In this document: positions 2,369 to 14,631 of the stretch, piece by piece
Position numbering within the stretch: the stretch's first letter is position 1
Layout of the letters: each line of letters begins with the position of its first letter
Source of the DNA: Caldilineaceae bacterium
GTDB taxonomy: Bacteria; Chloroflexota; Anaerolineae; Caldilineales; Caldilineaceae
Assembly: GCA_020433455.1 (NCBI GenBank)
Contig: JAGRCP010000056.1
Coordinates: forward strand, 1 to 36,373
DNA length: 36,373 nt
Direction of reading: 5' to 3'
The notes under the pieces: generated by a model
Told to the model about the DNA's origin: nothing
The model's input: the letters and a program-made list of their open reading frames with translations, nothing else
Databases searched by the model: none
Made by a program: the position numbers and the translations under genes

Positions 2369-5300
2369 CTATGGTCGAACGACCGTTACCTCCACCCAGG
2401 CGGTAGTCGAGAGTTCGCCGTCGCTTACGCTGTAGCTGAAACGGTCTACGCCGCTGAACTCGGCTGCCGGCGTGTAGCGGACGGCATTTCCCTCCACTGC
2501 CGTTGCGCCGTGTTCGGGCGCACCCACTTCGATAATGCGTAATGCGTCCTGTTCCGCATCCCCGTCATTATCCAGCACGGGAATGAGGATGGCTTCACCA
2601 TTGCTGCCTGCCGCGTCATCCATCGGCGCAGGCGGGTCATTGACGGCGTCAACGGTGACAATGACCCGCTGCTCGGTCGTTAATGTGCCGTCGCTCACCG
2701 TAACGGTTACTTCGGCGGCCCCGCTCTGGTTCGCCGTCGGCGCTATGCGCAAAACGCGCTGCGCGCCTTCACCGTTGAGCTGGAGCGCATCTTTCGGCAG
2801 AAGCAGGGCATTGTTGCTTGCCACGCTCAGCGTGAGCGCGGCCGGGTCATGGTCGACGTCGCCCACGGTGATTTCCATCTCGCTTACACTGTCTTCCGCC
2901 AGGCTTACTTCTTGCGGCACGCTGAGGGTCGGCGCGTCATTTACCGGCGTAACGGTGAGCGTAAACGCGCTCTGACCGCTGCTCTGGCCGTCGCTTGCCG
3001 TCAACGTGATGCGGGCAGTTCCGGACTGATTGGCTGCGGGAACGATCAGCAGCGTTCGCGTCGTGCCCGCGCCCTCCAGCGTGAGCGCTCCTTCGGGCAG
3101 CAAAGCCGGATTGTCGCTGCTCGCCGTCAGCGTCAGCGGATCGCCATCCGCATCGGCGAGCGTGAGAGCCAGCGTTATGCGCCCATCTTCGGCCACTGTC
3201 TGATCAGCGGCTTGCCCGATGACAGGCGCATCATTCACCGGCGCGACGGTCAGCAGGAAGCGCGCCTGGCTGAAGCCGACGCTATCCCGTACGGTGACCG
3301 TGATCTCCGTTGTCCCGTACCGATTGGCTGCGGGCGTGATGCGCAATGTGCGTTGTCCGCCGTCGCCCGTCATGACCATACCGTCAGGCGCTATAAGCGT
3401 ACCATCGGCCGCGGCAGCCGTGACGACCAGCGTAGCCGCGTCGTCGTCAACGTCGCTTACGGCAAGCGGAACCTCAATGCTGCCGTCTTCCTCGACTTGT
3501 CGATCGCCAGGCGGCTCGATTTGGGGCAGATCGTTGATGGGCGCAACGGTAACCGCAACCGTGCGGCTTACCGTTGTCAGGCCGTCATCTACAGTGAGCG
3601 TGATGACCGCGTTTCCCGTGCGGTCGGGCAGCGGGCGAATTTCCACTGTCCGTTCGCTGCCCGCGCCTGAGACGGTCATGCCGTCCGGGGCGACGAGAGT
3701 TTCATTATCTACTGCAACGCTCAATGTAAGGGTCGCCGGATCATTATCCACGTCGCTCAGGGTGACGATCAGCGTCCCTGTTGCGTCTTCCTCCAGGCGC
3801 ACTTCGCTTGCGGCAAGTACGGTCGGCGCATCATTAACGGGCGTCACCGCCACGGTTACGTTTGCGCCGGCGATGGCTTCGCCATCTGAAATGCGGTAGG
3901 TAAATGTATCTTCGCCCGCGAAATTGAGTGCGGGCGTATAGCTCACGAGACCGTTACCCAAATTGCTCGCTCGCCCGTGCGCCGGTTGCGTCAGATCGAC
4001 GAGGACCAGCTCGTCCTGGTCTGCATCATAATCATTTCCCAACAGGGCGATGGTTACGCTTTGTTCCTCTGCGGTGACGGCTGCATCTGCCACCGCGACG
4101 GGCGCGGCGTTGGGGCGGGCCGTGCTCGTCGCGGTAGGAGAGGGAAGGGCTGTCGGCGTTCCGGTCGGCGTCCTTGTCGGTATTCTGGTAGGCGTCTGTC
4201 CTGGCGTTCTGCTGGGCGTCTTGCTGGGCGTTTTGGCGGGGGGTCGAGTGGGCGTTCTGGTTGCTGTCTTTGTCGGCGTTTTGCTTGGAGAAGGTGTTGC
4301 CGCGGGCGTAATATCTTCCCGCGCCAGCGCCTTCTTGGTGGCAGCCTGCGTCGGCCGGGCCGCGGTTTGCCGCGGCGTAGGCGTGGCCGTAGGTAGGCGT
4401 GACGCCCCACGCGTCGGCGACGCCGTCGCGGTCGCGCCGGTGTTGGGCATTGCAGATGGCCGCCGGGCCGGCGTTGATGTCGCGCTCCCGCGGTCGCCGT
4501 TTGCACCCAAGCGCACCGAGAGGGTGCTGGTCGGCAGAACCGCCGTGAGGGCGGACGGCGTTTCGTCTGCCGTCGCCATGCTTTGCTCGCGACTATTGGT
4601 CGGCGTTGCTCCCTGCGTCGCGGCGGTTCTGCTGCTGATTACGGTCGGATTTGCATCCGGCCGGAGCGATGCCGCCGTTCCAGACTGGGCAGGAGTGATA
4701 GACGCATCAGCGGGCAGAGGCCGCTGGGCGACTTGCGTAACGTTGCCTTCGCTTGCCTGCACCAGCGGAGCCGTTCCCGTACGAATCTCTGCAATCTGCC
4801 CGCCTTCTATCTGGATGCGTTCCTCGCTCGTCTCTACCGTTACCATGCCGCCGGCCGTTTCGATCACGCTCTCTTCTACCGTGGGTACGGTGACTGTAAA
4901 ATCGGCCTCTTCGGTCAGCGCCCGCATGGCCGCGGTGCGCACTTCATAGATTGCGGCGGGCGATTCTGTGCGTGTGATCTGGTGGCGGGTCATCCCGGAT
5001 TCCTGGAGCAGCACAATCGCGGCCGCGCTGTTCTGCACTTCCGGGATCATCAGGCGCACGCGGCTGTAGGGCGACAGGGTTGCATGGCGGGCGGCAGAGA
5101 AGCGAATCTCCGCTGAGCCGTCGTTGGTTTGCACAATATCGCCTTGATCCAGGCGCGCCTCCTCGCCCGCCTGGATGGTTTCGACCGCCCCCGTCGCGCC
5201 GCGCTGAATCAAAAGCACGGCTGTCTGCGCGCTGACAATAGCCGCGTTGACGGCCGGGGAAGCAGGCGCTTCCAGCACGATTTCATCGGCTGAATCGAAT

Positions 5301-5623
5301 CGACTTGTCGTTTCCTGCGGCGTCAAAAGGCGAGGCAGCAAGATCGTGAAGAGCAGGAGGACGGCTACCGTCGCTCCGGCTAATGTCCAGGAAATGCTCC
5401 GGGCAAATTGAGCCGGCCATTCGGCCAATCGCTCCAGACGGGCGCGTAGGGAGCCGGCGCCGCTCGATGACGTTTCAGCCGCGTTACGCTTGCCCAGCGT
5501 GCGCTCCACCTCCTGTAAAACGTGGGTTTCCAGACGCGCAGCGAGTTCTTCAGGCACTTCTACCGGCGGAAGATGAGTCTGAAACAGCTTTTTCAGTTTC
5601 TGCTCATTCAATCGCTTAGTCAT
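2369..5623 (-). CDS. Single-pass FecR-like (putative anti-sigma) protein with cadherin/Ig-like ectodomain
   Basis: The 1084-residue membrane protein lies directly after an ECF sigma gene: the sigma stop TAA is followed at once by this ATG, so translation is probably coupled. Visible parts: a charged cytoplasmic head (1-76), one membrane helix (77-100), a FecR-like beta domain (about 130-285, with AVETIQAGEEARLDQGDIV), and a long Thr/Pro/Ala linker (about 285-505) with a period-4 TP-K/R tract. Then come about six tandem cadherin-like domains of roughly 95 residues (506-1084): an AVAD..LLGNDYDADQD type first and last, and four EDxx..DVDxDPATLT..VNDAP types between. I infer an anti-sigma role from position and topology. 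The head lacks the zinc-binding HxxxCxxC anti-sigma motif. The domains may bind surface polysaccharide, neighbouring cells or calcium. The minus-strand hairpin at 2285 ends the unit. Confidence 0.8.
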   Translation of the reverse strand: MTKRLNEQKLKKLFQTHLPPVEVPEELAARLETHVLQEVERTLGKRNAAETSSSGAGSLRARLERLAEWPAQFARSISWTLAGATVAVLLLFTILLPRLLTPQETTSRFDSADEIVLEAPASPAVNAAIVSAQTAVLLIQRGATGAVETIQAGEEARLDQGDIVQTNDGSAEIRFSAARHATLSPYSRVRLMIPEVQNSAAAIVLLQESGMTRHQITRTESPAAIYEVRTAAMRALTEEADFTVTVPTVEESVIETAGGMVTVETSEERIQIEGGQIAEIRTGTAPLVQASEGNVTQVAQRPLPADASITPAQSGTAASLRPDANPTVISSRTAATQGATPTNSREQSMATADETPSALTAVLPTSTLSVRLGANGDRGSATSTPARRPSAMPNTGATATASPTRGASRLPTATPTPRQTAARPTQAATKKALAREDITPAATPSPSKTPTKTATRTPTRPPAKTPSKTPSRTPGQTPTRIPTRTPTGTPTALPSPTATSTARPNAAPVAVADAAVTAEEQSVTIALLGNDYDADQDELVLVDLTQPAHGRASNLGNGLVSYTPALNFAGEDTFTYRISDGEAIAGANVTVAVTPVNDAPTVLAASEVRLEEDATGTLIVTLSDVDNDPATLTLSVAVDNETLVAPDGMTVSGAGSERTVEIRPLPDRTGNAVITLTVDDGLTTVSRTVAVTVAPINDLPQIEPPGDRQVEEDGSIEVPLAVSDVDDDAATLVVTAAAADGTLIAPDGMVMTGDGGQRTLRITPAANRYGTTEITVTVRDSVGFSQARFLLTVAPVNDAPVIGQAADQTVAEDGRITLALTLADADGDPLTLTASSDNPALLPEGALTLEGAGTTRTLLIVPAANQSGTARITLTASDGQSSGQSAFTLTVTPVNDAPTLSVPQEVSLAEDSVSEMEITVGDVDHDPAALTLSVASNNALLLPKDALQLNGEGAQRVLRIAPTANQSGAAEVTVTVSDGTLTTEQRVIVTVDAVNDPPAPMDDAAGSNGEAILIPVLDNDGDAEQDALRIIEVGAPEHGATAVEGNAVRYTPAAEFSGVDRFSYSVSDGELSTTAWVEVTVVRP
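4118..4294 (-). repeat. Period-4 Thr-Pro repeat tract (coding)
   Basis: This lies inside the FecR-like gene and encodes about residues 444-502, in which TP-K/R-T/S units recur every four residues (KTPTKTATRTPTRPP and so on). At DNA level it appears as near-12-base repeats. It is probably a rigid, wall-spanning or glycosylated stalk between the FecR domain and the Ig-like domains. Confidence 0.7.
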
Positions 5624-6151
5624 TTATACGCTTACACCTTCAAGAATTTGTCGTAACTGGCGTCGACTTCTGCTCAGAAGAGATTCCGTCGCTTTGTATG
5701 TTTTACCCATGGATTCGGCGACTTCGCTCACGCTTAGGCCGATGTGATAGCGCAGCAGAAGCGCTTCCCGATAGCTTTCAGGCAGCTTCATCAGCGCTTC
5801 TTCCAGTTCCATGCCCAGACTGGTGGGGCCGGCTACCGTCAGGTTTACGGGCAAGGGCTCCACGGGCCGCCGCCGCCGCCAAAAGTCCGCTTTTTTATTT
5901 GCTGCAATGCGATAAATGAAGGTCGAAATGGCCACGCGACCATCAAAATTCTGGATGGCCTTGACCAATGCAGCCAGCGTCTCGCTTAATACTTCCGTTG
6001 CGTACTCCGTGTTGCCCATTGCATAGCAGAGGTAGCGATAAAGCGGGTCCTGCCATTCGTCCAATAAATTCGACCATGCATCTTCGTCGCCGGCCTGAAG
6101 GCGACGCAGGAAATCGGGATCGGTGCCGGGCGAGTCGTGATTGGTTGTCAA
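5624..6151 (-). CDS. ECF-family RNA polymerase sigma factor
   Basis: This sigma factor of about 175 residues is expected to direct RNA polymerase to a small regulon. Region 2 is visible as DEDAWSNLLDEWQDPLYRYL through AISTFIYRIAANKKADFWRR. Region 4 has the helix-turn-helix (LPESYREALLLRYHIGLSVSEVAESMGKT, then SLLSRSRRQLRQIL). I choose the TTG at 6149-6151 because GGAG lies seven bases before it and the result has typical ECF length. The frame is open back to an ATG at 6334, which would add about 61 basic, unrecognisable residues with no good ribosome site. The gene is immediately followed by its likely anti-sigma partner, a classic sigma/anti-sigma pair. Neighbouring surface-protein genes are candidate targets. 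Confidence 0.88.
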   Translation of the reverse strand: MTTNHDSPGTDPDFLRRLQAGDEDAWSNLLDEWQDPLYRYLCYAMGNTEYATEVLSETLAALVKAIQNFDGRVAISTFIYRIAANKKADFWRRRRPVEPLPVNLTVAGPTSLGMELEEALMKLPESYREALLLRYHIGLSVSEVAESMGKTYKATESLLSRSRRQLRQILEGVSV

Positions 6152-6492
6152 TGCGTGACTCCTGCTCACTTTATCGTGAGTCTTTTTCACAATCCTTCGC
6201 CTCACGCTTATTCGATCGCGTACGCGTATAGGACGCGTGGGGGAATGGTCTGAATTGAATTCGGCTGCTTCTCTGGAAATATAGGCGGCGATGCTGTCGG
6301 CCGGCGATGATACGCGTGTAGACTCACCGCGCACGGGCGCTAAATCAGCATGAGGGTGTAGCGAGAATGGGCAATGGCTGATGCGTCAAATCAAGTCAAT
6401 GATCGGCAGGAGGGGAAGAAGCTGCGAAGCCGATCTCACTTGATTGCGCAGCGGGGACAATCGTGTAATGTGTTTGGGCCAAGTATAGCAAG
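6152..6492. other. Leader region of the sigma/anti-sigma pair
   Basis: Apart from the open extension of the sigma frame up to 6334, no gene is recognisable here. The region should hold the sigma-operon promoter. I could not pick a convincing -35/-10 pair by eye. A short stretch near 6222-6240 is rich in ACGCGT/TACGCG palindromes. Confidence 0.3.
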
Positions 6493-6622: not shown

Positions 6623-9600
6623 TTACTGGAGACGGATGATTGGGAGCAGAATGCCGTCCAGCATGCTGCCACAGTGAATCGACGTACTGTTGGGATCGTT
6701 AGGCTCGGTTGTATCTTGATCATCGGTCAGGATTTCTACGGTCATGTTATCCGCACTGACGGTAAACTGATTCTGCACGGCGGAGCAAGCCGTTCCGCGA
6801 ATGCGTACACGTAGCTGGACCGCCCAGGTTTGTCCCGACTGAAGCTCGGGAAGCAGCAGTTCAAAATTTTCCGCATTCGCGCTGATGATTTGACCGCCGC
6901 TTCCAGGGAAGATTGTATCGAAGAGCAACTCCGTGTCAGATGAAAGCGTGCCGGTAATGCGTACATTTTCTGCAGTTCGATTCCCCACGTTTTCTATGGT
7001 CGGGTTGTACACGATCTCGTCGCCCGGTTCCGCCAGCCCGCCCATTGCCGCCAGGTCCTTCATGGGCGCACGCATGATAACATCGGCCGTGACGGACGTG
7101 GTGGTCGCGTCATTCGGTGCTCCCGTATCGGGATTGTCGCTGACGGATGCTGAGACGCCATCGGCCAGGACTGTGGCCTGATTTGCGACCGTCTGGATGC
7201 CGGCCGGCAGCGTATCCGCAATCTTGACCCGGAAGCTGATGGTCGCACTTTCACCGTTCCCCAGCTCAGTTATGGTTACACGTACCGTATCGTCGGCGGC
7301 ATTTAAGCCCGATACGACTGTCCCTCTGCTGGTCTGAACAAGATCGCTGCCGGCGGCCGTCGGCGTGAGTGTGAGCAGTGAGGATAGCTCGTCATTAATG
7401 ACGACGTTTTGGGCGGATTCGCCTACGTTGCGAACGACGATCGTGTAGTCGATCAGGTCGCCCGGACCACTCTGCCCATCCGGGTTTGTATCGGTTACAA
7501 CAGCGCGTTTAGTCATGCGCAGAACGGGTCTGGTGGCAACCGTCGTAAGCGTCGGATCGTTCGCCTGGGGCGTGTCCGGATCGTCGGTCAGCATGAGGGG
7601 GAGGAGGGTCGATGTAACCTGGCCTTGGTTCGCTACTTCAACGATATCCCCCGTTAGTTGGTTGTCAATGATCACGTTGAAGGAGATGGTTACTGCCTCT
7701 CCCGCACCGAGGGTAGGAATTGTAACCCGTACATCCGTGTCGCCGGAACCGTTGCCGTCAGTGACGATTGCTGCTGCGCCGGATGAGCTAACCGTGCCGA
7801 CCACCAGCGTTGTGGACGTATCCGGCGTATCGAGGAAGACGACGTTTGACGCAGGAGCCTGGCCCTGATTCTCGATTTTTACGGTGTATCCCAAGGTCTC
7901 ACCTGGCGACGGTATGCCGTTGCCGTTACTGTCATTAACAAGCTGGTCGATCTTGGTAATCGCCAGGACGGCACGGGACCCCAGCGTCGTAACGGTCGCA
8001 TCATCTATATCGGCGCTGTCCGGATCATCGCTGGAGATGCTGGCGAAGTTTTGACCGATCACGTTGGCCTGATTGGAAATGGATGTAATGTTGTCAGGCA
8101 CCGGATCGACAATTTGCACCCGGAATGTGATGACAACTGTTTCATCAGTCGCAATGTTGCCGATATTTACGGCTACATTTGTATTTCCGGCGTCGTTGCC
8201 GCTGGTGATCGAACCTTTGCTAGTCGTCACGCTGCCCACAACCAGCGGGCTATGGGCATCCGGCGTGTCTTGTAACACAACGCCTTCCGCCGTCGTTACG
8301 CCCGTATTTTCCAGCCGAATTGTGTAGAGAAGGGTATCGCCGGCTTCGATGAGCGAGTCGCTGCCCGCGGGCCAGGGTGCGTCGCGCTTCGTTATTTTGA
8401 GCAGGATGGAGCGATCGACCGGTGTTTTATCGCTATCCTGATTGTTCGCAGGGTTGGCGTCATCGCCGTTTGTGCCGTCATCCTGTACTTCGGCGTCAAC
8501 TTGAATTTCTGAAACTCCGCTGGGAACCGATGAATTGAGGGTGACCGCGAAGATTCTGTTGCCTGTGTTGCCCGCGTTTACTAAGCCGATTGCCATGGTG
8601 CAGGTTGTGCCCGCCGGCGCGTTGTCGCTGCAACTCCAGCCAGCGCTGCTGCCGGCCTGATCAAATGTTGTGTAAGCCGGAACCGTTACTTTGAGGACGA
8701 CGCCTTCAGCTTTACCGCTGCCGTCATTGGCGTAACGAACGGTATAACCAATCGTTTCGCCCGGTCGAACGCTGACGCCGCCGTCCGTTACGTTGCGGAT
8801 GGTTACGTCAGGTGCGACGACCGTAATTTTGAAGGTTCTATTTGTCGATGCGCTGGCCGCATCCGTTACGGTGACGGTCACATTTACCACGCCGGTTAGC
8901 CCATCCGTGGGGCGAACGCGGATCAGACGTTTGGTCGGCCCGCTGCCGGCAAGGATTGTGATGTCTGCATTGGGCAACAGGGTTCCGTTGTCCGATACGG
9001 CTGTTACCGTCAATGTCCCCGGGTTGTGATCCACATCGCCTACTGTGATCTCCTGAGTGTGCGTCGCCCCTTCAACCATCTGGAAATCGCTAATTGCTAC
9101 CAGGGTCGGGCTATCGTTGACCGGAGTAATGGTCAGCGTCACGGTAGCCGTACTGCATGCGCCCTGAACGGAGCCGTTTGTGTTGCAGGCTTCGTATTGG
9201 AAGGAATCCGCCCCGTTGAAATTTGGGTCCGGCGTATATCTGATCACGCCGCTTGCCTGGGGAATAGCTGTGCCGTCAACCGGTGCTGCGGTAACGCTAA
9301 CGGAAGCCGGATCCATGCTCAGGGATGCTGCGCCTGGGGTATCATTCCCCAACACGGTAACGAGAATATTGGTATCTTCAGGGCCTGAGGCGATATCGTC
9401 CTGGACGTTTGGCTGGGGGGCAGTAATGTTCAGCATGACGCTGCCGCTGCCCGTCGTACCGCTTGCGTTGGAGCCCGTGGCTCCCTGATCGTCCACTGTT
9501 ATATTCAGTTCGTCGGCGAGGGCTCCGCTGTCAGGCGTGTAGGTGATGCCGTTGAACGCCGCGTTGAGGCTGCTGAGCGGCCCTTCGCCTGAGACTGCGG

Positions 9601-10231
9601 CGGTTCCGTTGCCGACGACGTTTGTCAGTCCGACGGTAGAAGCAAGATCGACTGTGCCCGAGGAAACGCTCAGGTTGAAGACGAGGATGCTGCTGCCTGC
9701 GTCTACGTCTTTCACCTCAATTGGCGGCAAGACTTTTGCAGTTTCAAAGGTAACTGCCTGGGCGCCCGGCAGGGTGAGAACCGGCGGATCGTTCAGGCAG
9801 TTAATGATTACATCGGCCGTGTAATTGGTGGCAGTATTGTTGTTGAGTTGATAAGTGAATGAATCGGGGGGACCGCCTGTCGTGCATACATTAGCATTCG
9901 GTTTGTATTCGATATCGCGTTGATTGCCCGTGATTTGGGTCGTTCCCAGCGCTGTCGGCGTATCGGCATGGGTGACCGTATCCGTTGTCTCCAGGGAGGA
10001 CTCGATTCCCAAAATCGTGTAGCCGGCATCTTCGTTTACCGTACCCGTGACGACCGAAGCGCCTATGATCAGCGGTATGGTTTCCTTCGCAGTTGACCGG
10101 ATTGTCTCCTGGGAAACGGATTTATCTATCGCCGCTGCTGGCCTGGCGCAGATTAAAAGTAAGACGAATAGACAGAATGCTCCAATGACAGCATAAGGGG
10201 AACGACGGAGTCGCGGCTGTTGTATGGTCAT
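6623..10231 (-). CDS. Large secreted surface protein: cadherin-like domains plus DUF11 repeats
   Basis: The 1202-residue protein has a signal peptide (hydrophobic 14-28, likely cleavage after ARPAAA, about residue 34). Next come about four cadherin/Ig-like domains (roughly 59-472), recognised by NEDAGY, VLGNDTPG, YTPDPNFNGADSFQYE, TPVNDSPTL and DVDHNPGTLTVT. Five DUF11-type repeats follow (roughly 473-1180), each starting like LxITK..PGETLGYTVKIENQG and ending in DDPDxxxxNDxT. DUF11 repeats are known from bacterial and archaeal surface proteins and usually serve as spacers or adhesion modules. The extreme C-terminus, DGILLPIIRLQ, resembles the YDVYLPVMQR tail of the next protein upstream. AGGAG precedes the ATG. 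There are few cysteines apart from paired ones. I infer a structural or adhesive cell-surface role; no catalytic motif is visible. Confidence 0.85.
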   Translation of the reverse strand: MTIQQPRLRRSPYAVIGAFCLFVLLLICARPAAAIDKSVSQETIRSTAKETIPLIIGASVVTGTVNEDAGYTILGIESSLETTDTVTHADTPTALGTTQITGNQRDIEYKPNANVCTTGGPPDSFTYQLNNNTATNYTADVIINCLNDPPVLTLPGAQAVTFETAKVLPPIEVKDVDAGSSILVFNLSVSSGTVDLASTVGLTNVVGNGTAAVSGEGPLSSLNAAFNGITYTPDSGALADELNITVDDQGATGSNASGTTGSGSVMLNITAPQPNVQDDIASGPEDTNILVTVLGNDTPGAASLSMDPASVSVTAAPVDGTAIPQASGVIRYTPDPNFNGADSFQYEACNTNGSVQGACSTATVTLTITPVNDSPTLVAISDFQMVEGATHTQEITVGDVDHNPGTLTVTAVSDNGTLLPNADITILAGSGPTKRLIRVRPTDGLTGVVNVTVTVTDAASASTNRTFKITVVAPDVTIRNVTDGGVSVRPGETIGYTVRYANDGSGKAEGVVLKVTVPAYTTFDQAGSSAGWSCSDNAPAGTTCTMAIGLVNAGNTGNRIFAVTLNSSVPSGVSEIQVDAEVQDDGTNGDDANPANNQDSDKTPVDRSILLKITKRDAPWPAGSDSLIEAGDTLLYTIRLENTGVTTAEGVVLQDTPDAHSPLVVGSVTTSKGSITSGNDAGNTNVAVNIGNIATDETVVITFRVQIVDPVPDNITSISNQANVIGQNFASISSDDPDSADIDDATVTTLGSRAVLAITKIDQLVNDSNGNGIPSPGETLGYTVKIENQGQAPASNVVFLDTPDTSTTLVVGTVSSSGAAAIVTDGNGSGDTDVRVTIPTLGAGEAVTISFNVIIDNQLTGDIVEVANQGQVTSTLLPLMLTDDPDTPQANDPTLTTVATRPVLRMTKRAVVTDTNPDGQSGPGDLIDYTIVVRNVGESAQNVVINDELSSLLTLTPTAAGSDLVQTSRGTVVSGLNAADDTVRVTITELGNGESATISFRVKIADTLPAGIQTVANQATVLADGVSASVSDNPDTGAPNDATTTSVTADVIMRAPMKDLAAMGGLAEPGDEIVYNPTIENVGNRTAENVRITGTLSSDTELLFDTIFPGSGGQIISANAENFELLLPELQSGQTWAVQLRVRIRGTACSAVQNQFTVSADNMTVEILTDDQDTTEPNDPNSTSIHCGSMLDGILLPIIRLQ

Positions 10232-10405: not shown

Positions 10406-12373
10406 TTAGCGCTGCATCACCGGTAAATAAACGTCATAGTTGGCTTGGGAGCTGGGATTGCGCACCCAGTTACTGAAAGTGCGTTTTTCCTGCCCGGCGT
10501 AGACCCATTGGGCCTGGGCGTTGTTGGGAATGACCGTACCGTCGCCCTGTCCGGGATCCGTGTTGCCGACCCACGTGATGATGACGTCTTCGCCCGAGCT
10601 TTGATAGCGTCCGTCCTGGGTGATAACGCTGTATTCGCTGTTAACCAGCGTGCGTTCCGAACGAACGGTCATCGTTCTGGTTACCGTATCGCCGCCGGCT
10701 AATTCGGGAATAAGCCATTCCGCTACGCCGTTGACGGTATTGTCCGGTCCGGTAACATTTGTTGCGTAGATGGGAATGGTGTCGCTGATAATCAAATTGG
10801 CGACCGAATCGCCCAGCAAATTGTACTTGACCGCGATTTCATAGGTAATGGAATCGCCGGGCTGAACCTGCTCCGGCGCGGATTTGGTAATTTCCAGGAC
10901 CGTATCCGCCGAGCGGAGAGGCTGACGGCGCACGATGGTATATGAAACCTCGCCGCTTTCACCGGGGCCGACTTCGCCGACTTCCCAGGAAATGACATCC
11001 AGCTGAGCGTTGATCTCCGGTGCATTGGCCCCCGCGCTGCTTACGCTGTCGGGCACCAGGTCCGCCTCCTGGGGAATCGTGTCGTTGATGTACACATCTT
11101 CCACCGGCGTGTCGCCGGGATTGTAGTAGGTAATCGTATATTCGATTGCTTCATCAGGCGCGACCCACCGCTTGGGGCTGTTATCCATCTCCAACCGAAT
11201 GCCGGGCTGGGGCGTGGGTGTGGGCGGCGGCGCCGGCGGGGCGGAGCGGAAGACCGTCGCGGTGACGCTGCTGTCATCCTCGGCTTGCAGGCCGCCGACT
11301 ACATATAGATAATCTTCGCCGAACTGATTGAGCGCGACAGCGGCATGACGCAAGCGCGGAGCGGGTAGCGCTTCTTCCGCCACCCTGGCTCCCAATGCAC
11401 CATCGGCCAGGAAAGGGTAGGATGTCACCCGGTTAAGAATTGCGTCATCAGACGTAATGCCGCCGATGATCACCAATTTGTTGTCCAGAACCGTAGCTCG
11501 GTGATAGTAGGTCGCAGCGGGTAATTGAGCCGCAACCTGCCAGGCGGACAATTGCCCGCCTGGCAGTACCGCCGCGCGCCAGATTTGATCAAATGAGACT
11601 GCCGGACTGCCGTTCCGATCGCCTCGATTAGAACCGCCGACTGCATAGACGTAGCCGTCATGCTCAACGGCGGCAAAGCGCCGCAGTGGTTGCGGGAGGC
11701 TGGTTGTTTCCGTCCAGGGGCCCAGATTGCCGTTCGCGTCAATTGACGCGAACTGCACCTGATTTAAGGTCAGATCGTCGGCCGTGTTTTGCGGATATCC
11801 CCCCAGAAATCCTCCTAAAATATAGAGGCGATCATTGACGATTAGCGCTTCGTGAAGGTTAATCCCCTGGCTGATTTGGCCGGGAGGCGGTGAAACGGGG
11901 TAATTTCCCAACACTTGCCATGCCGCGAGTCCGCCGTCCTCCAGAAATGCCGCGCGGAAGATATTAATCGTTCCGAAAATATCACCCCGCGCCGCGCCGC
12001 CGACGGAGTAGACGAACTTGTCGTTAGCCGCCACGGCGTGGAGATAGCGGTGATCCGGCAGCGGGCTGGTTTCCTGCCACCCTGCGAGCGAGCCGTCCGC
12101 ATTGACCGCGGTGTAGAACACTTTGTTGCCGGCGTCCAGCTTGTTGCCGTCGGGCTGTTTACCGCCGATGACATAAATGAAATTGTCATGTGCGACGATG
12201 CCGCTGTTGGCGGAATTGACGGGTAACGGCGTATCCGCCAGCTCCGTCCAGTTTGTAATAGGAGCGGTGATGCCCGCTGATTGAAAACCAAAAACAAACA
12301 AAAATCCCAAGCTTAGAGTGGTGACCGTGGCTGCAATGATTTTCAGTACCCGATCCGGTAGCGGAACGCGCAT
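10406..12373 (-). CDS. Secreted kelch-propeller protein with DUF11 domains and C-terminal LP tail
   Basis: The 655-residue protein has an N-terminal hydrophobic signal or anchor (about 8-31). Six kelch-type blades follow, marked by IYVIGG, VYSVGG, LYILGG, VYAVGG, LVIIGG and LYVVGG (about 55-380), each with a conserved downstream Trp or Leu-Pro turn. A Pro-rich hinge (PPAPPPTPTPQPG) leads into two DUF11-like domains (about 399-610, starting IRLEMDNSPKRWVAPDEAIE and VLEITKSAPEQVQPGDSI). The C-terminus is YDVYLPVMQR. The gene starts five bases after the pseudokinase stop, with its ribosome site (GGGAGAA) inside the end of that gene, so the two are co-translated. A propeller on a surface stalk suggests ligand or glycan binding. 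No enzyme residues are recognised. Confidence 0.83.
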   Translation of the reverse strand: MRVPLPDRVLKIIAATVTTLSLGFLFVFGFQSAGITAPITNWTELADTPLPVNSANSGIVAHDNFIYVIGGKQPDGNKLDAGNKVFYTAVNADGSLAGWQETSPLPDHRYLHAVAANDKFVYSVGGAARGDIFGTINIFRAAFLEDGGLAAWQVLGNYPVSPPPGQISQGINLHEALIVNDRLYILGGFLGGYPQNTADDLTLNQVQFASIDANGNLGPWTETTSLPQPLRRFAAVEHDGYVYAVGGSNRGDRNGSPAVSFDQIWRAAVLPGGQLSAWQVAAQLPAATYYHRATVLDNKLVIIGGITSDDAILNRVTSYPFLADGALGARVAEEALPAPRLRHAAVALNQFGEDYLYVVGGLQAEDDSSVTATVFRSAPPAPPPTPTPQPGIRLEMDNSPKRWVAPDEAIEYTITYYNPGDTPVEDVYINDTIPQEADLVPDSVSSAGANAPEINAQLDVISWEVGEVGPGESGEVSYTIVRRQPLRSADTVLEITKSAPEQVQPGDSITYEIAVKYNLLGDSVANLIISDTIPIYATNVTGPDNTVNGVAEWLIPELAGGDTVTRTMTVRSERTLVNSEYSVITQDGRYQSSGEDVIITWVGNTDPGQGDGTVIPNNAQAQWVYAGQEKRTFSNWVRNPSSQANYDVYLPVMQR

Positions 12374-12378
12374 GAGTG

Positions 12379-14631
12379 TTATTCTCCCGTTGATGGTGGA
12401 CCACCCGGGTCACCCCCTGATGACCCGCTTCCTGCTCGATAGAATCGAAATGCGGACTGTGCGTCCATAAACTGTAAGCGCTGATAAGACGGCTCAACTT
12501 GCACCAATAAAAGACCCCATTGATACTCTCCGGGTTCCAACGGATGGTTGCCGGAATTATCTAGAGCCGTTAAATCAACAGTAACCTGATTTCCGGTTGT
12601 TGGAGCCGCCATGCCGAAGCCCTGTGAAATCGGATCCTGGCCGTCTTGCCAGAACACGATTTCAAAAGCCTGCCCTGTCTGGGGCGTAATCGTCGTATCC
12701 CAGCTAAAGAGTTGGCTTCCCGTACCGCTGCCTCCGCTTAAGGGCAATAGGAGCTGTAACGCACTGCTTCCCGTTGCGATACGCGTGCTGGTCGCCGTGG
12801 GCAGCGGCAGCGGCGTGTTGGTAACCGTCGGCTGCACGGTATTGGTCGCCGTGGGCTGGGGCGTATATGTGGCGGTCGGCAACGGAATCGGCGTACGCGT
12901 CGCGGTCGGCAGCGACGTATTCGTGGCAGTCGGCAAGGCTGTATTGGTTGCCGTTGGTTGCGGCGTATTGGTTGCCGTCGGCTGCGCTGTATTTGTGGCG
13001 GTCGGCAAGGCTGTATTGGTAGATGTCGGCCGCGGCGTATTGGTTGCCGTTGGTTGCGGCGTATTGGTGGACGTCGGCTGTGCTGTATTTGTGGCGGTCG
13101 GTTGCGCCGTGTTGGTAGACGTCGGTCGCGGCGTATTGGTTACAGTTGGTTGCGCCGTATTAGTAGACGTTGGCCGTGCCGTGTTCGTCGCTGTCGGTTC
13201 CGGCGTATTGGTCGCCGTTACTTCTTCCTGGGCCGTGCGTTGAGTTGCCGGTGCAATGATTGCCGAAGCTGCTTCTCCGCTTTCCGCCGTTTCATTTCCC
13301 GCCTCGTTTACATCGGACTGCTGCGCGGTCGCGGTTGATGCTGCCGTCGGCGTCGCTGTCGGGCCGGCTTCCGTCGTCGGCGTCGCTGTTTCGCCATCCC
13401 CTGCGCCTGCGTCTTCTGCAACAGATGCGGCCGTCGCGGTTGCGGGGTCTGTTGCCGTAGCTGACTCGTTCTCGCTATCGCCTCCTGCCGGGCTTTCCGG
13501 CGTATTGGTTTCGCGGTTAGAAGCCTGCTCCTCCGCATTGTCCGCCCCTGCATTCTGGCTGGTCTCTTCCGCCTGAGCCGCGGCTACGCTGGTTGCGCCT
13601 TCATTTTGGGGCGGCGTAGCGGACGCGGTATTTGCGCCGCGATCAGCGGAGACGACAGCGCCGCGTCGTAAGAGGGCCGGCTGGATCAGAAAGAGATAGA
13701 CCCCGCCTGCCACCAGCAGCAGCATGGCCAGGGTTGCCAATGCGCCGATTAACCTGCGCCGGCCGTTATTGGTTGTTTCCTGCTGCTTTTCCGCTACCGG
13801 CGCGTCCCAGACCATGCCTGCCGACAGGGCATTCTGAAAATCGCCTGCGGTGCTGTAGCGAACATCTGGTTCCTTGGCCAGCACATTACGCAATACATAG
13901 GCTCCGCCGGCTGGAATTGAAGGATTTAACGACCGTGCTGAGTGGGGGATATCGTTGACGATGGCGTAAAGCAATTGCCCCTGGGTGTCGGCCACAAAGG
14001 GCAGATTCCGCGTGAGCATGGAATAGGCGACGACGCCTAGGCTGTAGATGTCCGCGCGGGAATCGCTTTCAATATCGGCTCGAATCTGCTCCGGCGCCAG
14101 GAAATGGGCGGCAAAGCTCGCGGGTTTGTCCTGGTCGGTGAGCGCGACTGTGTTGAGCCCTTCCGCCAGACAGAAGTCGGTAATCATCACCTGACCATCT
14201 TCAGTCAGGATGATATTATCCGTCGTGAGCCCTTTGTGCTCAATCCCCTGCTCATGGGCGTAATCCAGGGCATCCGCCAGCTGTGTGACAATGGGCAGGA
14301 TGGTTTCCGCATGGCTGACCTGCTGCTGATTGGCCAACCGATCAGTCAGCCGTTCGCCGGGAATATACCGGCTGGCAATATAATATTGCCCATCGACCTG
14401 ACCGGCATCCACGACCGGCACAATATTCTTGTGTTGTAAACGTGCAGCCTGCCGCCCCGCAGCCAGGAATTGCTCTAATCGCGATGATGTATGCAGGAAT
14501 GCCCTACCGGGAACGCGGAGCACGACAGGACGATCCTGGCTGTCCGTTGCAAAATACTCCACATATAACGGGCTTTCGCTCGCTGTGCCCTGAATTGTGT
14601 ATGGTCCGATTTGTTTCGGTGCTGTGTTCAT
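12379..14631 (-). CDS. Membrane protein-kinase-fold protein, probably a pseudokinase, with Thr/Pro stalk
   Basis: The 750-residue protein has a Hanks-type kinase fold at residues 10-270, one membrane helix (about 293-316), a low-complexity extracellular stretch, an 8-residue Thr/Pro repeat stalk (472-617) and a C-terminal beta-rich domain (about 621-735) that I do not recognise. Fold landmarks are kept: APE (179-181), [14 protein letters not shown] (194-207) and the Asp of DFG (D152). Key catalytic residues are not. The beta-3 lysine is Arg39 (VVLR), the HRD motif reads HKG (132-134), so the catalytic Asp is Gly134, and DFG reads DFC. The glycine loop is also degraded. Family rules therefore predict a catalytically weak or dead receptor that senses outside the cell. 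It is co-translated with the kelch protein. Divergent ATP use, as in some atypical kinases, cannot be excluded. Confidence 0.88.
12781..13218 (-). repeat. 24-bp tandem repeat array encoding xPTxTNTx stalk
   Basis: About eighteen 24-base units inside the pseudokinase gene encode variants of A-Q-P-T-A-T-N-T. Units differ at silent and first positions, so the array is old enough to have diverged. Array length may still vary by slippage. The Thr density makes O-glycosylation plausible (inference). Confidence 0.9.

Follow-up and report, generated by a model that had tools for sequence, protein, structure and literature searches.

The window analysed here, a stretch of 36,373 nucleotides from a Caldilineaceae bacterium, encodes a membrane protein with a kinase fold that probably acts at the cell surface as a receptor or scaffold without enzyme activity (Table 1). 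This reading comes from sequences, in which catalytic residues are lost and fold-bearing residues retained, the protein is conserved in four genera, its gene is linked to a kelch gene, and its ectodomain is shared with other proteins. More specifically, the protein would be a catalytically dead PknB-like receptor of a lineage-specific family, its ectodomain holding the kelch protein outside and its kinase fold docking inside, a proposal to which we give an even chance.

The open reading frame and its coordinates were correctly predicted at the outset, as was the long Thr/Pro stalk, where these two amino acids make up 55% of residues 471–620. A single transmembrane segment precedes the stalk, at about residues 295–316. 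The Pfam Pkinase profile matches the protein with 97.2 bits (E 1.4e-27, cut-off 31.7) over positions 52–254 of 263, which assigns it to the Hanks fold. The top PDB relatives are the active PknE, StkP, and PknB, and the alignment with active mycobacterial and streptococcal kinases spans the whole domain. These are transmembrane Ser/Thr kinases that likewise combine a kinase domain, a transmembrane helix, and an extracellular sensor; unlike them, the window protein has an eroded catalytic site, a Thr/Pro stalk, and a different ectodomain, and no PASTA repeats were matched in it by the Pfam profiles. Also, the PASTA kinase model NF033483 gave 170.9 bits, far under its cut-off of 450. AlphaFold2 models of the ectodomain alone and of the kinase domain with two myxobacterial relatives had pLDDT values of 52–53, too poor for use.

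Table 1. Features of the window around the receptor pseudokinase gene, with the basis of each assignment.
Feature	Position	Strand	Basis
Receptor pseudokinase, 750 aa (kinase fold, TM, Thr/Pro stalk, ectodomain)	12379..14631	(-)	ORF and Pfam
Pseudokinase domain, residues about 1-275	13807..14631	(-)	Pfam and PDB sequence matches
Beta-3 position, Arg39 instead of Lys	14515..14517	(-)	PknE pairwise and multiple alignment
Alpha-C Glu position, Ala58 (overlooked in the original prediction)	14458..14460	(-)	Multiple alignment
HKGLTTDN for HRDxKPxN; catalytic Asp and catalytic-loop Lys lost, Asn kept	14215..14238	(-)	Alignments
DFC for DFG; metal-binding Asp retained, Gly lost	14170..14178	(-)	Multiple alignment
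Single transmembrane helix after RRR, residues about 296-316	13684..13746	(-)	Hydropathy
Thr/Pro-rich stalk, PTxTNTx repeats, residues about 465-622	12766..13239	(-)	Sequence
C-terminal ectodomain, common to active STKs, PP2Cs, and FecR-type proteins	12382..12759	(-)	Alignment and searches
Secreted kelch propeller and DUF11 protein	10406..12373	(-)	Pfam; beside pseudokinase also in G012, G010, G004
Large secreted DUF11/Big_9 protein	6623..10231	(-)	Pfam; syntenic in G012, 41.8% identity
ECF-type sigma factor	5624..6334	(-)	Profile matches; syntenic in G012
Anti-sigma-like N-terminus, TM, stalk, cadherin/Big_9 repeats	2369..5623	(-)	Pfam; N-terminus like FecR-type L097/L098

In the pairwise alignment with PknE, EHKGLTTDN lies opposite THRDVKPEN and TDFC opposite VDFG, with VVLRVP at beta 3. 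Compared with PknB-type kinases, the Gly loop reads ASESPLYVE and alpha C reads LAAGR, HKG occupies residues 132–134, the Lys of HRDxK is replaced by T136, and DFC occupies 152–154, with C154 for Gly. The row used as the alignment ruler has a sequence that we take to be that of PknB, and the PDB pairwise alignment gives the same residue correspondences. These alignments bear out R39 at the beta-3 Lys, G134 at the HRD Asp, and DFC for DFG, together with the degraded Gly loop and the intact APE (stretch 179–182) and F-helix motif (DIYSLG, 194–199), all as originally described. However, the description of three missing catalytic landmarks stands only for the Lys and the HRD Asp; the DFG Asp is retained, so only two of the three canonical residues are lost. 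Its list of losses, although real in what it named, was also incomplete, with A58 in place of the alpha-C Glu and T136 in place of the HRDxK Lys. With Arg39, Gly134, and Asp152 as its canonical trio, the protein falls outside the competent Hanks kinases. Moreover, a bacterial pseudokinase is defined by one or more of the Lys, HRD Asp, and DFG Asp being missing (PMC12599244), a definition that takes in the window protein, with two of the three missing, and each of the four orthologues, with at least one.

Several pseudokinase families in that review (ActPs1-3, GLW, CP1, DYD, and DLHK) likewise have a kinase fold with lost catalytic residues, several of them with a transmembrane segment after the kinase domain; unlike them, the window protein has no DYD motif, GLW motif, COG3899 ATPase domain, or DFG deletion. 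It shares the absent alpha-C Glu and the beta-3 Arg with the DYD family and also has the transmembrane segment, but its DFC in place of DYD excludes membership. For ActPs2 (beta-3 Arg, HRN, deleted DFG, two long insertions), the Arg is present, but the protein has HKG, DFC, and no long insertion, whereas CP1 combines a COG3899 ATPase domain, for which no Pfam match was found, with the absence of a transmembrane segment, which is present here. EssB/YukC and the pseudokinase domain of MviN are likewise membrane pseudokinases acting as scaffolds (PMC12599244), but the window protein has no secretion-system or MurJ-like part and is much closer to active PknB kinases. An EssB/YukC assignment was rejected: the Pfam profile gave no hit at E 0.1, and the seven proteins scanned included no T7SSb-type neighbor. 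Words beginning "Chloroflex" or "propeller" are absent from this review, and a literature search on Chloroflexi with kelch and kinase gave no title or abstract on such receptors.

A search of 61 genomes with the window kinase gave one clear orthologue, G012:C150, at 53% identity, and many other kinases at 30–40%; in a scan of genome contigs with the kinase, the only two matches were distant, intact myxobacterial kinases. Pseudokinase orthologues are found in three further genera of the same family (G012, G010, and G004), each followed by a kelch gene. The G012 copy reads VTLKLP, HEGLTTDN, and DFC and has no alpha-C Glu. Thus, of the substitutions whose conservation was in question, the beta-3 Arg is not conserved, this copy having kept the Lys, whereas HRD Asp-to-Gly and DFC are common to both proteins; the catalytic-loop Asn and the DFG Asp are also retained in both. 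G010:C455 (LALRIL, YLDLNFRD, DIG) retains an Asp at the HRD position, and its catalytic-loop Asn is changed to Asp. The eroded kinase domain of G004, on contig C622 (RLLYTF, HGQLTPGE, GIG), has Glu for this Asn and keeps the alpha-C Glu. In this case, the ectodomain and the kelch gene are on C116, and the end of C622 and the start of C116 fall in the same Thr/Pro repeat (TDTPPPTNTHTATA-type); both ends would belong to one gene split by a contig break. Gene order around the G004 copy, from a divergent DUF11-like surface protein upstream to kelch and an endonuclease III-like gene downstream, is the same in G010; the kelch and endonuclease types were recognized here by eye from sequence, not by profile. 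No canonical catalytic residue is lost in all four proteins, which have just two losses in common, those of the Gly loop and of the catalytic-loop Lys.

In the maximum-likelihood kinase tree, the four proteins group at 97/86, nested in a larger supported clade (99/97) together with active receptor kinases of the family and five PD40-propeller pseudokinases. These five (L055, L063, L064, L065, and L066) make up a second pseudokinase group of the same family, with HRN or HHN, DFS or DFD, and a fused PD40-propeller ectodomain; a single origin of both groups is possible but unsupported (92/38). Intact paralogues of the same architecture occur in the window's own genome. For example, the active receptor kinases G000:C73 and C67 have the same stalk and ectodomain and the same tree neighborhood, but differ in their intact VALK, HRD or HQD, and DFG motifs and in having RCC1 propeller genes, not kelch, among their neighbors. 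Another eroded transmembrane kinase on G000:C73 (L060:7325-8476 (+)), with HYALNPDA for HRDxKPxN, lies beside genes for an FtsK/SpoIIIE multi-ATPase, WXG100, and FHA proteins, in a T7SS-like context that recalls EssB.

Selection was assessed on 47 columns (9 catalytic or nucleotide-binding, 38 other) with at least 85% conservation among 45 kinases presumed active, a set in which odd rows, the eroded G004-like ones included, appear only if the alignment lists them. In the four sequences of the kelch-linked clade, catalytic columns are retained in 11/36 cases and the other invariant columns in 102/152 (Fisher p = 1e-4, a guide only, columns and sequences being non-independent). The APE Glu, the F-helix Asp, and the alpha-I Arg are retained in all four. 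Compared with G012, the kinase domain has a pN/pS of 0.45 and the ectodomain one of 0.34, at saturated synonymous sites. In all five pairs of the clade that were compared, identity is higher in the ectodomain than in the kinase domain (62.5/53.2, 52.8/36.7, 46.0/31.8, 49.6/32.6, and 61.7/37.8), and the reverse is seen in one active paralogue pair, L059/L061 (37.9 versus 56.6). Orthologues of an active short kinase in G000 and G012 are 57% identical, not much above the 53% of the pseudokinase domain, whose divergence between these two genomes is therefore not unusually rapid. Column retention, pN/pS, and the higher ectodomain identity indicate that the catalytic site has been released, whereas the fold and the ectodomain are held. 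The original view of a pseudokinase with its fold kept thus gains from the eroded homologues in three genera and from the kinase-domain pN/pS, and is graded as probable.

A non-catalytic receptor is the most likely reading of these data, its main rival being a pure membrane anchor, where only the ectodomain and kelch would matter and the kinase fold would be a vestigial cytoplasmic plug that holds the membrane position and passes no signal. Such a plug would agree with the faster divergence of the kinase domain than of the ectodomain in the kelch-linked clade and with catalytic residues that drift differently genus by genus. However, all four proteins have a full-length kinase domain and keep the APE, F-helix, and alpha-I residues, and the kinase-domain pN/pS is 0.45 (pS saturated); we consider this anchor rather unlikely. 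Gene decay or an annotation artefact is very improbable and already largely refuted. Although the loss of several catalytic residues and the apparent splitting of the G004 copy by a contig break would fit it, uninterrupted open reading frames of 750–963 aa are found in three genomes, the whole block is syntenic with G012, and pN/pS is below 1. The lone decayed copy that the original prediction had allowed for, with intact homologues in close relatives, is rejected by the eroded orthologues, which are the nearest homologues in three other genera, by their tree grouping, and by pN/pS.

An atypical active enzyme would bind nucleotide through the DFG Asp, the catalytic-loop Asn, and Arg39, and possibly perform a different transfer reaction. 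Different transfer reactions on kinase folds are those of SelO and SidJ. Also, the Asn and the DFG Asp are kept in the window protein and G012, and ATP binding is possible for Lys-to-Arg pseudokinases (review PMC12599244). Nonetheless, the window protein is without an intact Gly loop, alpha-C Glu, HRD Asp, and catalytic-loop Lys, and the remaining residues vary across the clade (N-to-D in G010; GIG and N-to-E in G004), all of which leaves this enzyme quite unlikely. Residual nucleotide binding or activity is possible in some clade members, and in the window protein nucleotide binding is possible because Asp152 and Asn139 remain.

The kelch start codon lies 5 bp past the pseudokinase stop and a GGGAGA ribosome site is placed in the last pseudokinase codons, in agreement with the co-translation first proposed. 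The kelch gene adjoins the pseudokinase in 4/4 genera, with gaps of 2–5 bp in the window, G012, and G010, and among 17 genera of the order its relatives at E<1e-30 are confined to the same four. In G012 the block is syntenic throughout (FecR/cadherin-type protein, sigma factor, DUF11 protein, kelch, pseudokinase, and divergent sugar-nucleotide genes). The nearby sigma factor suggests a transcriptional output, and there is precedent for an ECF sigma factor being phosphorylated by a Hanks kinase (PMC13147305); however, this sigma factor comes with an anti-sigma-like partner of its own and is preceded by a strong promoter-like match, which makes any link to the pseudokinase speculative. In an own-genome paralogue pair of these two genes (L097), the pseudokinase ectodomain takes the place of the cadherin/Big_9 repeats.

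Outside the cell, the stalked beta-rich ectodomain would bind or retain the secreted product of the adjacent downstream kelch gene, and inside, the retained kinase fold would be a platform for docking, where it would either pair with an active receptor kinase bearing the same ectodomain or bring in a cytoplasmic partner. Then, occupancy outside would alter assembly inside without phosphotransfer. Reporting on surface assembly, as originally suggested, is a conceivable role. To our knowledge, few bacterial pseudokinases have a known function. Here, an eroded kinase and active kinases with the same ectodomain coexist in one genome, with a predicted extracellular partner adjacent, and such matched receptors make the contribution of the dead domain directly testable by comparison.

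The outer domain, regarded originally as unknown, recurs across the class. It was found in 8/17 genera of the family (46 genomes) and in 28/395 genomes of the class, with eight copies in the window's genome. Its carriers include active kinases, PP2C phosphatases (L060, L100, L103, L134, and L139), FecR-type proteins beside sigma factors (L097 and L098), and a LysM protein (L099), with L103 and L098 assigned by similarity only. Kinase and phosphatase carriers are interspersed in the ectodomain tree, a pattern pointing to shuffled cytoplasmic outputs, and after its orthologues the window ectodomain is nearest by path length to the FecR-type, with modest support. A gene with a secretion signal, as called by a crude hydrophobicity rule, follows 16/20 kinase- or phosphatase-type carriers, compared with 68/202 ORFs overall. 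Several of the secreted proteins encoded downstream of carriers have propeller repeats (kelch, RCC1, SBBP, and LVIVD), and kelch also lies 3' of the PP2C carrier L139 in another family, with a 3 bp gap.

Also, G010:C409 (L057:3567-5252 (-)) combines a PP2C domain that is degenerate (Pfam PP2C 18.4 bits, below the cut-off; Stp1 36 bits) with a transmembrane segment, a stalk, and this same type of ectodomain; CBM96/DUF11 and kelch genes follow it, and it is a candidate pseudophosphatase counterpart. Tentatively, a single ectodomain, frequently associated with a gene for a secreted beta-propeller, could serve class-wide surface sensing on interchangeable outputs (kinase, PP2C, anti-sigma, dead kinase, and the putatively dead phosphatase), the dead ones being kelch-paired in this family.

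Finally, two C-terminal motifs were observed. An [FY]LPxh-like motif, a possible sorting signal, is near the extreme C-terminus of 14/68 ORFs with a secretion signal versus 3/134 without (internal 16-mers, 12/1360), its carriers including 6623-10231 and 10406-12373 of the window and L053, L054, L057, L100, and L101. Pseudokinases and FecR-type ectodomain proteins have [ST]GE at the extreme C-terminus (window 12379-12400, L053, L054, L058, L097, and L098), whereas active kinases end in CPGCGGR or similar.
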